Translations under genes and position numbers: made by a program
Source of the DNA: Acidobacteriota bacterium
GTDB lineage: Bacteria > Acidobacteriota > Terriglobia > Acidiferrales > UBA7541
DNA: 64,000 nt
Direction of reading: 5' to 3'
Assembly: GCA_003224085.1 (NCBI GenBank)
Contig: QHYK01000054.1
Span: 1-64,000 of the forward strand
In this document: positions 22,516 through 32,901 of the stretch, piece after piece
Layout: every line of letters starts with the position of its first letter
Position numbering within the stretch: position 1 is the first letter of the stretch
The notes under the pieces: generated by a model
Databases searched by the model: none
What the model was told of the DNA's origin: nothing
The model's input: the letters and a program-made list of their open reading frames with translations, nothing else

Positions 22516-24777
22516 TCAACTCAAGCCGAGCTTGGTGATCGGCAGATCTCTCACTCGCTTGCCGGTCGCGGCAAGAATAGCGTTGCAGAACGCCGCAACA
22601 AACGGTGGCACGCCTGGCTCCCCGACACCGGCTGGTGGAGCGTCGCTGTCTACGATGTACACATTCGTCTGATAGGGCGCCTCTCCGATTCGAGCAACCG
22701 GATAATCCTGAAAATTCGATTGGTCGATGACACCCTTCGTCGCTGTAATCTCGCCGCTTCGCACAATGCTTGTGCCGAACACCGCTGCGCCCTCGAACTG
22801 AGCGCGTGTCGCCTCGGGATTCACCACCAAGCCTGCGTCCAGAACTGTATCCACGCGAGGAATCCGCACTTCACCCTGATCATTGACTTCGACTTCGACA
22901 ACCGTCGCCACATAGGTCAAGAAACTGCGGTGCGCCGCAATCCCGATGCCGGTGCCCTTGCCGTGCTTCCGCTTTCCCCATCCGGATTTTTCCGCGACCA
23001 TTTCCGTTACACGGCGCAGTCGCCCGGTTTCCCATGGATAAGCATCCATCGAAGCTCCGTAATTCGGGTACTCCACGCCTTTGAAATCGACGGTGCGCGG
23101 GCTCCCAATCAAATCGAGCAAGTAATCGAGTGGATCGCGCCCGGCCGCATGTGCCAGTTCATCCGTGAAGCATTGAATGGCAAACGCGTGGTAGATATTG
23201 GCCACTGAGCGTAACCAGCCGATGCGCACGTGAGCCTTCGCCGGCCCATTCTCGATGCGAAGATTTGGCAGATCGTAGGGAATGTCCGTCCAGCCCTGTT
23301 GCAGATGGGCAGGGTCGCCATAAACCGTGTTCACGTCAAAAATAGATGGAATCGGAGGAAAGACCGCCCGTTGCAGCCAGGCTGTCGGCTTGCCGTTGGC
23401 GCCCAAAGCGGCCTTCATGTACATGGACGCGACGGCATTGTAATAGTCAAACTTGATATCATCTTCTCGGGTCCAGACCACCTTCACCGGCCGTCCCATT
23501 TTTTTGGACAAGACAGCAGCCTCAGCAACGTAGTCGGGTTTCGACTTGCGGCCAAATCCTCCGCCGAGGAGGGTCACATGGCAAATCACATCTTCTTTCG
23601 CAATCCCTAGCTCTTTCGCAACGGTGTCTTGCACAGCTTGAGGATTCTGCGTCGGAGCCCACAGTGTCGCTTTGCCGTCTTTAAATTCCGCCAGCGCGAC
23701 CATCGGCTCCATCGAAGCGTGCGCCAGAAGGGGGACGTAGTAGTCGGCCTCATATACCTTGCCACCTTTGGCGAACACCGCGTCCGCGTCGCCAATATTG
23801 CGCACCACTTTGCACGGATTGTGCGAGGTCGCTCGCAATTCGTTCTTGTACTCGTCCGAGTTGTAGGTTTCGTTTGGTCCGTTATCCCATGAGATGCTCA
23901 GCTTCTTGCGGCCTTGGAACGCCGCCCATGTGTTATCCGCAATCACCGCGATCCCGCCGAGCGGCTGAAACGCCGGTGCCTGTTGGAATGGATCGATCGG
24001 AACAGTCTGATGCACGCCTGCGACCTTCAAGGCTTCCTTGTCGTCGTACGATTTCACTTTGCCCCCGAGAACGGGCGGGTGCTCCACCGAGGCGTACACC
24101 ATGCCGTCCGCACGAGCATCCATGCCATAGATGGCTTTCCCGGTAACAAGGGCTTCGAGGTCGTAGCTTACTTGCCCTTTGCCTATATACCGCCAGGCGC
24201 TCTTTGATTTGAACTTCAGCTCTTCTCTTTTGGGGACCGGCAATCTCGCCGCAGCGGCCGCGAGTTCACCGTAGCCAGCTCTGCGGTTCGTCGCGCGATG
24301 AACAACAACGTGTAGGTCAGTTCCGCATTCCGTCGCGGGAACACTCCACTGATGGGCCGCAGCTTGAATCAGCATGAATCGCGCCGTTGCTCCCGCTTCA
24401 CGCATCGCGTCGTAGAACGACCGTATCGAGTGCGATCCATCTGTATTCTGGTCACCGTATCGGCTGTCGCCAAGCGCTTGCTCGATCTTCACTCGCTTCC
24501 AATCCGCGTCCAATTCGTCGGCGACCACGAGCGGCAGCGTGGTGCGGCTTGTCGTGCCCATCTCCGAGCGACTGGCCACGATCCACACCTTGCCATCCGG
24601 GTCGATTCCGAGGTAGACGCTGGGATGCAAGATGGCGTGGTCGGCGTTTGTATCGTGCGGAAGTTTGGCGCCCGGCGAAAGCTTGCGGTAATAACGGACA
24701 CCCAGCACAAGCGCGCCTGCAGCGACCATGCCTCTGGTCAGAAATCGCCGTCGGCTGACATTCTCAATCTGGCTCAT
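22516..24777 (-). CDS. Molybdopterin-binding subunit of an IorB-type oxidoreductase
   Basis: The 753-residue protein is the large subunit of the xanthine-oxidase family in its isoquinoline/aldehyde-oxidoreductase branch. It starts with a twin-arginine signal ([19 protein letters not shown]). The molybdenum-cofactor signatures are GGGFGRKS and the C-terminal VGEPGVPPF with the catalytic glutamate. These enzymes hydroxylate N-heterocycles or oxidise aldehydes using water oxygen. The start overlaps the stop of the iron-sulfur subunit (ATGA). No FAD subunit is present, which fits the two-subunit periplasmic type that passes electrons to cytochrome c. Confidence 0.93.
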
Positions 24778-25229
24778 GTCGTTTCCCCCGCCGCTGCTTT
24801 AATCGCCGCGCGAATCCGCTGATACGTTCCGCAGCGGCAGATGTTCCCGGCCATCGCTTCGTCAATCTCCTGATCAGTCGGCTTCTTTTTGCTGTTCAGC
24901 AAAGATGCCGCTTGCATGATCTGTCCCACCTGGCAGTAGCCACACTGCGGCACGTTAATTTCCATCCAGGCCCGCTGAACCGGATGCAATCCGTTCTTAT
25001 CGAGGCCTTCGATCGTCGTGACTTCTTTTCCGGCCGCGTCGCGCATGGCTGTCACGCAGGATCGCATCGCTTGACCATTCACGTGGACGGTGCAGGCGCC
25101 GCAGAGTCCAACGCCGCACCCAAACTTCGATCCGGTCAGTCCCAAAACGTCGCGCAGATACCACAGTAGCGGCATTTCCGGTTCACCACCGAAAGACTGC
25201 TCAACTCTGTTGACTTTAAGTTGAATCAT
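24774..25229 (-). CDS. (2Fe-2S) subunit of an IorA-type oxidoreductase
   Basis: A 151-residue two-cluster iron-sulfur protein. The plant-type cluster is bound by [15 protein letters not shown] with a further Cys in MRSCVTA. The helical C-terminal cluster is bound by CGYCQVGQ and [10 protein letters not shown]. It carries electrons from molybdenum to an external acceptor. It has no signal of its own and should be co-exported with the Tat-bearing large subunit. AGGAGA precedes the ATG. It is the second gene after the hydroxyisobutyrate-dehydrogenase-like gene in this minus-strand series. Confidence 0.95.
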
Positions 25230-28018: not shown

Positions 28019-28228
28019 TCACTTGCGGTTGTAAACTCTCTGTTTGAAACTCTGCGATTTGTCACTTCCGGTACACAGGCAATAGGCGTGCCAAAAGAAG
28101 GAATTCTTAAGTGACTGACTCAAAAGGCGATCTGATGTCATGCTGCTGTCTAGGACAAACTCTTCCATCAATAAATGCCTGCCTGCTAACACTCTGTCCG
28201 CATGCTGACAGCGAAGCCGTCGGACCAT
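28019..28228 (-). CDS. Doubtful small ORF ahead of the metallothionein gene
   Basis: This 69-codon frame starts with ATG after AGGAGCCGAG and stops 15 bases before the metallothionein start, so position and ribosome-binding site would suit an operon gene. The protein (MVRRLRCQHADRVLAG..., ending SFKQRVYNRK) has no recognisable domain and an ordinary composition. It may be chance, since this is also where the divergent promoters of the metallothionein and transporter genes should be. Listed with low confidence. Confidence 0.2.
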   Translation of the reverse strand: MVRRLRCQHADRVLAGRHLLMEEFVLDSSMTSDRLLSQSLKNSFFWHAYCLCTGSDKSQSFKQRVYNRK

Positions 28229-28378
28229 CTCGGCTCCTGCACGCCGCTTAGTCCTATCTCTCTATTTTTTGCAAGGGTTACAGGCAGTGTTCGCGGGCTG
28301 CTGTTTGGCAGTCGTTATGCCTGCATAGCAGGAGGGAATTGGCAGCAACAAGGTTGCTTAAAAGGGAGGAGGATCGGA

Positions 28379-29689
28379 ATGGATCGAGGTTTCACGAAAA
28401 TTCCAGGGGACGAAAGCCAGTTGGGACACCGCATGACCGCTGATCGTTGGCAAATCGCCGGTGCCGGTGTCGTTCTGCAGGTTGCCTTGGGCGCCGTTTA
28501 CGCCTGGAGCGTGTTCCGCGTCCCACTGTCGAAGCAATTCGGTTGGAGCATTTCGGAAGTCACGCTGACTTTTACAATCTGCATCTTGGTCCTTGGCATC
28601 TCCTCATTTTTCGGCGGGCTTTGGTTGAACCGGAAGGGCCCGAGAATCGTTGCACTCACGGGCGCGTTTCTCTACGGCTCGGGATTGTTTCTCGCGAGTC
28701 TCTCGAATCACGGGCTGTGGTGGCTGTATCTGAGCTATGGCCTCGTCGGCGGAATTGGCCTGGGCTTTTGTTACATCGTTCCGATAGCCGTTCTTGTGAA
28801 ATGGTTTCCTGACCGCCGAGGTCTCATTACCGGTATAGCGGTCGGCGGATTCGGAGCTGGCGCTCTCATCACCGCGCCCGTGGCGACGCGTCTAATTGCG
28901 ACCGTCGGGGTGCTAGAGACGTTTGCCTATCTGGGGATCGCATTTCTCATCGTGACGCTAGGCTGCGGTTTCTTTATGCAAAACCCTCCGCAAGGCTGGA
29001 AGCCCGCTGGCTGGACGCCAACAGTCTCGGAGGCGTTGCATCGCTCGGCGCGAGACTACTCGCTTGGAGAAGCTCTCAAGACTTGGCAATGGTGGGCGCT
29101 CTGGCTGCTTCTCTTTCTCAATACTTCTGCCGGAATTTCAGTGATTTCGCAGGAGTCACCGTTGTTTCAGGAGTTGCTGGGCGTGACCGCGGTCATCGCT
29201 GCAGGCATGGTCGGGATCGCAAGTATTGGAAATGCTTTTGGCCGCGTGTTCTGGGCTTGGGCGTCAGATTCCATCACGCGACGAGGAGCCTTCCTTGCGA
29301 TGTTTCTGGCACAAGTGTTGCTTTTTTTGTTCTTCCCGAGCATTCATTCGGTCTGGCTGCTGACAGTCGTCGCCTTTCTTGTCTTGTTGTGTTACGGCGG
29401 TGGATTCGGCACAATGCCGGCCTTCGCGGCTGACTACTTTGGTTCCAAAAACGTTGGACCTATTTATGGACTCATGTTGACTGCTTGGGGCTTCGCCAGC
29501 GCGTTTGGGCCGTTGCTCATCGCCTATATCAGGCAGGTAGAAGGGAACTACCGCGGCGCGCTGCACGCCATTGCGGGCATAGCGGCTGCCTCCATGGTTC
29601 TTCCCATTATTGTGCGCCCGCCTTCGCAGACTCAGGTCTCTGACCAACTGGCATCCGGCCAAGGAACGGGCGAGCAGCTGCCTAGGTAG
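28379..29689 (+). CDS. OFA-family MFS transporter (oxalate/formate antiporter type)
   Basis: A 12-helix major facilitator protein (436 aa). Family features are the opening GAVYAWSVFRVPLSKQFGWS, the first loop GGLWLNRKGPR and the GGFGAGALITAPVATRLI stretch, all typical of the oxalate:formate antiporter branch. The ATG at 28379 has GGGAGGAGG upstream; the longer frame to 28202 has no such site. The formate dehydrogenase operon starts 38 bases after its stop on the same strand. That makes a formate or oxalate carrier role likely, although OFA members also move other monocarboxylates. Confidence 0.9.
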   Translation: MDRGFTKIPGDESQLGHRMTADRWQIAGAGVVLQVALGAVYAWSVFRVPLSKQFGWSISEVTLTFTICILVLGISSFFGGLWLNRKGPRIVALTGAFLYGSGLFLASLSNHGLWWLYLSYGLVGGIGLGFCYIVPIAVLVKWFPDRRGLITGIAVGGFGAGALITAPVATRLIATVGVLETFAYLGIAFLIVTLGCGFFMQNPPQGWKPAGWTPTVSEALHRSARDYSLGEALKTWQWWALWLLLFLNTSAGISVISQESPLFQELLGVTAVIAAGMVGIASIGNAFGRVFWAWASDSITRRGAFLAMFLAQVLLFLFFPSIHSVWLLTVVAFLVLLCYGGGFGTMPAFAADYFGSKNVGPIYGLMLTAWGFASAFGPLLIAYIRQVEGNYRGALHAIAGIAAASMVLPIIVRPPSQTQVSDQLASGQGTGEQLPR

Positions 29690-29727: not shown

Positions 29728-32700
29728 ATGCTCAAGGACACGTTAACTCGTTGGCCGTTCATACGGCAGATCCTGTCGGGCGGTGACGGAACAGGTGTTG
29801 AAGCAATGAGCGCTCGAACGCGCAACCTTCGCCCTCGCCATGAATCCGCAGAGGTCGCGCGCTCCGTCTGTCCGTATTGCGCCGTGGGATGCGGCCAACT
29901 CGTATACCACAAGAACGGGAAATTGATCTCGATTGAAGGAGACCCGGCTTCCTTTATATCCCGCGGGCGGCTTTGCCCTAAAGGTTCCGACAGTTTCGAA
30001 CTGCTCACCCACGCTAACCGGGAGACCCGCGTCAAGTACCGCAGACCGTATTCCACCAAATGGGCAGAACTCGATCTCGAGACAGCCATGGACATGATCG
30101 CCGCGCGAGTCTGGGACACTCGTGAGCGCACGCTTATTGAGGAAAGAAACGGAGAAGTCTTGATGCATACGACCGCCATGGCGCACCTTGGCGGAGCGAC
30201 GCTCGATAATGAAGAAAACTATTTGATCAAAAAGCTTTTCGCGGCCGGGTTGGGAATGGTCTGCATCAGCAATCAGGCCCGCATATGACATAGCTCAACG
30301 GTGCCCGGTCTGGGCACATCCTTTGGTCGAGGGGGAGCGACAACCGCGCCAAGCGACCTCTTGAACTCGGACGCCATTCTGATCATGGGTTCCAACATGG
30401 CGGAAAATCACCCGGTCGGTTTCCAGTGGGTCGTGGAGGCGCGAGAGCGGGGAACACAGGTGATTCACGTTGACCCTCGGTTCAGCCGGACTTCAGCGAT
30501 GGCAAATATCTGGGCGCCTCTGCGCTCCGGTTCAGACATCCTGTTTCTCGGAGGGCTCATTCATTACGTTCTCGAAAACGGGAAAGACTTTCGCGAGTAC
30601 GTGATCCATTACACCAACGCTTCGTTCATTCTTCCTGAAGATTTCAAGGACACCGAGGATTTGGGGGGCGTGTTTTCTGGCTGGGACGCGAAAAACAAGA
30701 AGTACGACGCGAGTAGCTGGCTCTACGAAGGCTGTGCTGAGGGCGGCAAAGCGGTAGCCCGGCACAACGCACCTCACTCCGGCCACTGCAAATATGGTGC
30801 TGGAACCGCAGCAGATCTCATCGATTGCAAACGCGACCTGACGCTTGACCATCCACGATGCGTGTACCAAGTGCTGAAGAGGCATTTCGCGCGGTACACG
30901 CCGGAGCTGGTTGAGCGCTTTTGCGGAGTTTCCCAAGAGCGGTTCCTGAAAATTGCGGACACGTTTTGCTCCGCCTCGGGCCCGGAAAAGACTGGCGCGA
31001 TCTGCTACGCGCTGGGCTGGACCCAGCAGTCCAAGGGACCGCAGATCATTCGAGCCGCCGCGATCCTTCAGCTCTTGCTCGGCAACATGGGACGTCCTGG
31101 CGGAGGCATCCTGGCCCTGCGCGGTCATGCTTCGATTCAAGGTTCAACTGACATTCCAACTCTGTACGACATTCTCCCTGGTTATTTGCCGATGCCGAAC
31201 CTCGGCCTAGATTCACAATCCCTGGCTGACTACGTGGCAAAGCATCGCGACAAGACCGGCTGGTGGTGGAACTTCGACAAGTACATCGTCAGTTTGCTCA
31301 AGGCCTATTACGGCGAAGCCGGCAGCCGGGAAAACGAGTGGGGATTTAATTGGCTTCCACGAGTTATCGGCGACCACTCACATCAGGGCTACTTTCTGGA
31401 GATGCTCGACGGCAAGATCGAGGGTCTGTTTGTTATGGGACAAAACCCGGCGGTGGCCGGCCCCAATTCGCGGGTGGAACGCAAGGCGCTGGCCAAGTTG
31501 AAATGGCTCGTAGTGCGCGACCTGGTCGAACTCGAAACCGCCTCTTTCTGGCAGGACTCTCCGGAAGTCGAGCGCGGGGAACTAAAGCCGGAGGAAATTG
31601 GAACCGAGGTCTTCCTTCTGCCCGCCGCCGGACACGCCGAGAAAGATGGATGCTTCACCAACACGCAGCGCCTTCTGCAGTGGCACCAAAAGGCCGTTGA
31701 CCCCCCAGGAGATGCCCGCAGCGAGACCTGGTTCATGTACCACTTGGGTCGCCGCCTGAAGGAAAAGGCGAAGCAAGATCCGCGGCCACGCAACGCTGGG
31801 CTGAACGCTTTGACTTGGGACTATTCCCTAGAAGGCAAACTGCAAGAGCCCAGCGTGGAAGAAATTCTTCAGGAGATCAACGGCTACACGGTGGCGGACC
31901 GGAGGCTAGTGAGTGGATTCGGCGAATTGAAAGCCGACGGGTCAACGGCCTGCGGCTGCTGGATCTACTCCGGCGTATTCCCACGCCCCGACGAAAACCG
32001 CGCCAACCAGCGTTGTTCCCGGGATCTTTTGGGACATGGCTGGGGTTTTGCCTGGCCCGCTGATCGCCGCATCCTTTATAATCGCGCTTCGGCGCGTCCC
32101 GATGGACGTCCGTGGAGCGAACGAAAGAAATTGGTTTGGTGGGATGAGAACAAGAAGGAGTGGACGGGTCTTGATGTCCCTGACTTCACGAGGACCAAAG
32201 CACCCGATTACCAGCCGCCTAACAATGCGTGCGGTGATGATGCCCTCGCCGGCGATAAACCCTTCATCTTGCATCCCGATGGCACCGGCTGGATCTGGGC
32301 TCCCAAGGGATTAGCAGACGGCCCGCTGCCGACCCACTACGAATCGTTGGAATCTCCGGTCTGCAATCCGCTCTATCCCGGGCAGCAAAGCAATCCGGCA
32401 GCACTGAAGGAGGAGCGGTCTGAAAACCAATACGCCAGTTCCCCTGATGAGCGGTTCCCCTATGTTATGAGCACGTATCGACTGACGGAACATCACACTT
32501 CGGGTGCCATGTCCCGCATGCTCCCGCATCTGGCCGAGCTTCAGCCTGAATTCTTCTGTGAAATATCACCAGAGCTAGCAGCGGAGCGCGGAGTCGAAAA
32601 CGGGGGATGGGTGACCATCATGACTCCGCGTGGGATCGTCGAGGCGCGAGCGCTCGTGACTCCGCGGATGTGGCCGCTACTCATAAACGGAAAGATGGTG

Positions 32701-32901
32701 CACCAGATAGGCGTGCCTTATCACTGGGGCTATCGCGGCCTGGTCAAAGGGGACTCCGCCAACGACCTCGTGGCCATCTCGGAAGAGCCCAACGTCCGCA
32801 TTATGGAGGCCAAGGGAATCCTCTGTAACCTCTCTCCTGGGCGCCGTGCGCAGGGCAAAGCGGCACTCGATGAATTAAATTTCTTCCTTGGGGGATCGTG
32901 A
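29728..32901 (+). CDS. fdnG: Formate dehydrogenase catalytic subunit, selenocysteine-containing
   Basis: One gene of 1058 codons with an in-frame TGA at codon 187 read as selenocysteine. The text on both sides, ISNQARI-U-HSSTVPGLG, then TSFGRGG and MGSNMAENHPVGFQ, matches the active-site region of FdnG/FdoG enzymes (NQARV-U-HGPTVASL in E. coli). A [4Fe-4S] cluster is bound by Cys48, Cys51, Cys55 and Cys83 (CPYCAVGCG, GRLCPKG). The molybdopterin domains and the C-terminal dinucleotide-binding domain are complete. Unlike FdnG, the N-terminus (MLKDTLTRWPFIRQ) lacks a clear twin-arginine signal, so the side of the membrane is open. GAGGAGAAGTC precedes the ATG. It needs SelA/B/C/D, not found in the window. 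Confidence 0.95.
30286..30317 (+). promoter_or_regulatory. Selenocysteine UGA codon and bacterial SECIS hairpin
   Basis: TGA at 30286-30288 is followed after 12 bases by a perfect 6-bp stem, GTGCCC (30301-30306) and GGGCAC (30312-30317), closing the loop GGTCT. The E. coli fdhF SECIS has the same GGUCU apical loop at a similar distance, and SelB recognises it. The hairpin lies in the coding frame with normal codons, and no compensating start or ribosome-binding site occurs after the TGA. Confidence 0.93.

Follow-up and report, generated by a model that had tools for sequence, protein, structure and literature searches.

When an open reading frame is cut by a single in-frame stop codon, are we looking at two separate genes, at a decayed one, or at one gene that the cell reads through? 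This question is raised by a locus in the window (the whole stretch of 64,000 nucleotides that was analysed here, from an acidobacterial genome of the class Terriglobia), where the list of open reading frames gives two frames of 186 and 866 aa, which an earlier note had joined across the TGA at 30286 into a gene for a selenocysteine (Sec)-containing formate dehydrogenase (FDH). The two do share one frame (Table 1), in which this TGA, codon 187, is the only internal stop, and no other is met in 1057 codons until the terminal TGA at 32899-32901. The read-through protein scores best with the family NF041513 formate_DH_Act (1602.2 bits for a cut-off of 1400, residues 5-1049) and also passes the cut-off of TIGR01553, formate dehydrogenase-N alpha (988.8 over 814.2 bits). 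Among solved structures, its 13 best matches are all FDH alpha subunits, headed by E. coli FdnG (1kqf_A, E 1.3e-226, in two stretches). Although the best-scoring family is NF041513, the alignment with 1kqf_A confirms that the TGA falls on the active-site Sec of FdnG: QARI-U-H in the window protein stands against QARV-X-H in 1kqf, X being the Sec of the latter, with the conserved His following in both. The U-H and RGH motifs, which a passage of PMC8808070 describes for FDHs, are both present in the window protein.

Table 1. Positions in the window of the predicted selenoprotein gene, its recoding elements and its neighbours.
Feature	Position	Strand	Basis
MFS transporter, monocarboxylate / oxalate-formate antiporter group	28202..29689	+	NF049980 SfMCT 437.5 bits (cut-off 320); TIGR00890 237.5 bits, under its cut-off of 374.85
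fdhA-type gene, predicted Sec-containing formate dehydrogenase catalytic subunit, 1057 residues with Sec187	29728..32901	+	Frame through TGA; NF041513; TIGR01553; FdnG match
TGA predicted to be read as selenocysteine (Sec187)	30286..30288	+	TGA at the same site in 89/110 related loci, window included
Putative SECIS hairpin, stem GTGCCC/GGGCAC, loop GGTCT	30301..30317	+	Fold; SECIS_3 (sub-threshold); pairing and covariation; model R1
Iron-sulphur (beta) subunit, 258 residues	32898..33674	+	Fer4_11 and other 4Fe-4S domains; adjoins fdhA in relatives
NrfD-type membrane (gamma) subunit, 338 residues	33718..34734	+	NrfD_2 48.8 bits (cut-off 27); NrfD 47.2 bits (cut-off 25.8); in relatives, third in the operon

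What do the relatives carry at this codon? It was read in 110 loci, namely 80 loci from named genomes, the best of 206 such relatives, and the best 30 loci of a search in the class (these include the window itself, and one genome or more occurs twice); loci L136-L138, L160 and L161 were left out of the analysis. The codon is TGA in 89 of them, Cys (TGC or TGT) in 20 and TAG in one. All the Cys rows and the TAG row come from the named 80, and Cys in close relatives, which the earlier note had listed as grounds for giving up its reading, is not what the class holds, its 30 best loci (window included) all having TGA. The TAG row (L065) belongs to Modestobacter sp. DSM 44400, of the Geodermatophilaceae, a family for which UAG-coded Sec, with FDHs among the genes concerned, goes back to Mukai 2016 as cited in a passage of PMC5330540; FDHs are involved in both cases, and the difference is that the window has TGA and the tRNA-Sec of its genome the anticodon UCA. 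Internal TAGs in homologues were also considered as a second recoded codon, an idea that was dropped: the TAGs seen lie at the gene end or upstream (ten loci read, three of those reported with TAG).

A tree of 108 of the 110 rows, made by a quick method with the Sec column masked and with SH-aLRT as the only support, left out a row shorter than 800 residues and L106, whose match equals that of L025. It groups the window with Acidobacteriota rows, the nearest being L025 (Acidipila sp. Bin5_1), and shows a second clade from this class as the neighbour of 59 of the 65 Actinomycetota rows. One Sec/Cys change suffices for the 108 rows, which is consistent with a single loss of Sec on the branch to the Streptomyces-centred clade that holds the 20 Cys rows. 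The family NF041513, whose "Act" presumably stands for actinobacteria, shows the same alpha-beta-NrfD gene order in most relatives and has either Sec or Cys at this position. The Acidobacteriota rows, however, sit in clades apart from the actinobacterial ones, and those read keep TGA, whereas the Streptomyces-centred clade has Cys.

The putative SECIS element, a perfect 6-bp stem with a GGTCT loop that had been described 12 bases past the TGA, is found there and is kept in relatives. Taken by itself, the fold does not stand out (z -1.08; 29 of 200 shuffles are equally stable), and an Rfam scan at gathering scores does not list SECIS_3 for the window. The hairpin is like SECIS_3 (RF01989) in its position just after the UGA and aligns over the whole model, but differs from it by the perfect stem and by a score of 32.4 bits (E 7.1e-6 in 201 bases) that does not reach the gathering score of 63. 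It is the comparison across loci, and not the stability of the fold, that decides for a SECIS. When identical 45-base rows are taken once, the 89 TGA rows are reduced to 69 (64 window-type and 5 FdnG-type, the latter with the stem in another register), and 62 of these form all six pairs, while five form three pairs and two form five. None of the 20 Cys rows forms six pairs, the best of them forming four, and the TAG row forms six of six, its hairpin being intact: the element is kept with UGA and lost with Cys. FdnG-type rows, with their different register, were left out of a formal count in 33 chosen rows; there, 99.5% of the cells pair, against 25-56% after slides of 1-3 columns. Columns 18 and 30, synonymous third positions of a Val and a Gly codon, covary (G-C, C-G, U-A, U-G, A-U and G-U, with one row unpaired), this being the only one of the six pairs with changes on both sides in the 33 rows, where four pairs are invariant. 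The covariation score of the 33 rows was reached by 0 of 500 shuffles, a kind of test that related rows inflate. Furthermore, a covariance model of the element (R1, own row included), run over the whole genome with E up to 10 and 150 of 3377 candidates scored, returned only the window site (66.5 bits) and an FDH on another contig, C75 (29.6 bits); it did not find the TGA site of selD, and other SECIS types can be missed by it.

Is the genome equipped to make Sec? The assembly (6.80 Mb in 159 contigs, 97% complete) holds matches over the cut-offs for SelA (561.3 bits), SelB (352.9 bits) and SelD (344.5 bits), which were exceeded in one, two and two of 14 control genomes, respectively. The best tRNA-Sec match reaches 66.4 bits for a cut-off of 47; since the Rfam search is unspecific (13 matches in the genome, two of them over the cut-off, which 5 of the 14 controls also exceed), the assignment is taken from ARAGORN, which calls the anticodon tca on that match. 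All four genes that the earlier note had proposed to look for, selA, selB, selC and selD, are accordingly found over cut-off, and the absence of selB and selC that would have told against it is not seen. The selD gene is split over the ends of contigs C18 and C89 (matches L022 and L020), the last 136 bases of C18 being the end of C89; the match on C18 was considered as a second selD, and is most likely part of a single gene cut by the contig ends. It has its own in-frame TGA near the start, which we take to be the Sec17 position, and SelD is probably itself a selenoprotein.

The presence of the pathway genes agrees with the earlier claim that the organism makes Sec; the companion claim, that this ability is patchy among Acidobacteriota, does not hold within this class, where selA is common. 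In a sample of 299 genomes of the class, SelA is over the cut-off in 218, and in 221 at E 1e-60, a threshold passed only by E. coli among the 14 controls. An FDH match at E 1e-50 is found in 105 of the genomes, and 103 of these have SelA, the two without a SelA match being 88% and 79% complete; SelA also occurs in 118 genomes of the sample that have no FDH match at this level. Acidobacteria were already known to have selenoproteins: a part of a 2006 survey may imply them (PMC1794560), and a portion of the deep-Sep article lists three known selenoproteins for Occallatibacter riparius (PMC12013277).

The neighbours of the gene point to the kind of enzyme. Genes for the iron-sulphur and NrfD subunits follow it in 88 of the 102 window-type loci, as judged by tblastn (the greedy choice of open reading frames is unreliable in high-GC loci); eleven of the other 14 have at most 1500 bases downstream, and L040, L071 and L083 have 5000 bases without both genes. 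In the window, both subunits stay under the NCBI equivalog cut-offs, with 203.9 bits against 334.7 for the beta subunit in TIGR01582 (FDH-beta). The product of the MFS gene may be a formate carrier. As a fixed part of the operon, this gene is unsupported, being present in the flanks of the 110 loci, many of them short, only in the window, in L030 (downstream) and in L055 (about 7 kb away). A Tat-like motif, sought with a regular expression of our own, is absent from the N-terminus of the window protein and occurs in 1 of 91 scorable window-type relatives, where it precedes the likely start, but in 8 of 8 FdnG-type ones, 11 of the 110 loci being unscorable. Elsewhere in the window, at 22516-25229 on the - strand, a pair of open reading frames resembles by eye the large subunit and the 2Fe-2S subunit of a molybdenum hydroxylase.

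SelB of E. coli brings Sec-tRNA to the UGA by binding a hairpin. By the same route, SelB of this organism would bind the hairpin downstream of the UGA at 30286 and deliver Sec-tRNA(UCA) to it. The product would be an Mo/W-bis-MGD formate dehydrogenase alpha subunit, in which Sec187, next to the conserved His and the RGH motif, would be a ligand of the metal. Together with the FeS subunit and an NrfD-type anchor, it would form a membrane complex whose active site, given the lack of a Tat motif, would most likely be cytoplasmic, and electrons from formate would pass to the quinone pool, quinone being the presumed acceptor. We infer from this a membrane-bound formate:quinone oxidoreductase that faces the cytoplasm. 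Its activity cannot be taken for granted, because searches of the genome found no FdhD, which FDH activity in E. coli requires.

How do other explanations fare? A TGA that really ends translation, or that results from a sequencing error, would leave a pseudogene or two separate genes and account for the two frames of the list, but the same codon is TGA in loci of two phyla, the rest of the frame is free of stops, the hairpin follows the codon in the way described above and the genome has the Sec pathway, so that we find this explanation barely credible. Slightly less far-fetched, and still very improbable, is a periplasm-facing respiratory FDH-N of the standard kind (FdnGHI). Among solved structures the alpha subunit matches FdnG best, TIGR01553 is passed, and the window enzyme shares with E. 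coli FDH-N (1kqf) the Sec at the aligned site, the 4Fe-4S and molybdopterin domains and the FeS partner; it differs, however, in having no Tat-like motif, an NrfD protein in place of cytochrome b and no adjoining FdhE. Contig C75 (L135), moreover, carries a second TGA-containing FDH, of the FdnG type; the N-terminus of this protein is Tat-like, and with it go FdnH, cytochrome b and an FdhE-like gene (Pfam domains pass their cut-offs; TIGR01562 gives 82.9 bits, under its cut-off of 187.65). By gene content, the FdnGHI-like set of the genome is that on C75 and not the window operon, and because of the missing Tat motif and the NrfD-type membrane subunit the window enzyme is not FDH-N proper. A protein with Sec that acts on another substrate within the molybdopterin oxidoreductase family would fit the missing FdhD (in the genome, in its genus and in 62 of the 105 genomes with an FDH match); it is nonetheless unlikely, if less so than the previous two explanations, given that two FDH families are over cut-off, that the best solved matches are FDH alpha subunits without exception and that the U-H and RGH motifs are kept.

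The preferred reading remains that of one selenoprotein formate dehydrogenase gene, to which we give a probability of about 0.94, because the codon and the conserved hairpin are accompanied by the Sec pathway genes in the same genome; Sec would be inserted at codon 187, and formate would be the substrate. The two fragments of the list are thereby corrected to one intact gene, which, as far as its sequence can tell, is a genuine selenoprotein FDH, ordinary in kind and of a well-known type.

The missing FdhD deserves a closer look. Passages of PMC6239281 and PMC10609526 describe FdhD as giving the FDH metal its sulphido ligand and as needed by all three FDHs of E. coli, and a remark in a review has fdhD absent in some organisms with FDHs. 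TIGR00129 (FdhD) has no match in the window genome, and matches 8 of the 14 controls. Across the class sample, PF02634 (FdhD) matches 101 of the 299 genomes, 28 of them in the family of the window genome, and none of the 24 FDH-bearing genomes of its genus. FdhD (PF02634) is found in 43 of the 105 FDH-bearing genomes and not in the other 62, one of which is a single contig. With an FdhD of the same family as the query, none was found in 36 genomes of the genus, that of the window among them (24 of the 36 have a completeness of 90% or more and a contamination of 5% or less), in a search that had no positive within it; in a mixed control, the same query found 8 of 8 PF02634-positive genomes and 0 of 10 PF02634-negative ones, among them the single-contig G227. 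These absences are to be read with care: many of the genomes are drafts, and the searches would miss an FdhD that has diverged very far. The absence of FdhD as a neighbour means little, because just one of the 110 loci has it in its flanks. No FdhD stand-in was seen beside the FDH operons in 16 stretches, among the 25 largest clusters: the clear conserved genes in them are alpha, beta and NrfD, or FdnG, FdnH, FdnI and FdhE, and the rest overlap these or are unspecific. L140 (G081, of the same family) has FdhD downstream of a frame that resembles by eye an FdhF/YdeP-type oxidoreductase, and not beside a Sec-FDH. Among the literature matches listed, from a coverage that most subscription journals fall outside, there is no paper on the FdhD gap in Acidobacteriota.

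Do Sec-FDHs in this genus and in other genera of the class mature without FdhD? We consider the chances evenly balanced that they do, either with another sulphur carrier supplying the sulphido ligand or with enzymes that work without it. Here is a lead that can be tested, and the part worth following: a genus that has Sec-FDHs but in which FdhD goes undetected. It turns the remark of the review into a defined test case, that of genomes in which two Sec-FDHs occur and FdhD is not detected. More broadly, FDHs with a Sec codon, accompanied by selA in the same genome, occur widely in the class, and the TGA, Cys and TAG codons found at the site of one hairpin provide a clean, natural control of SECIS function.
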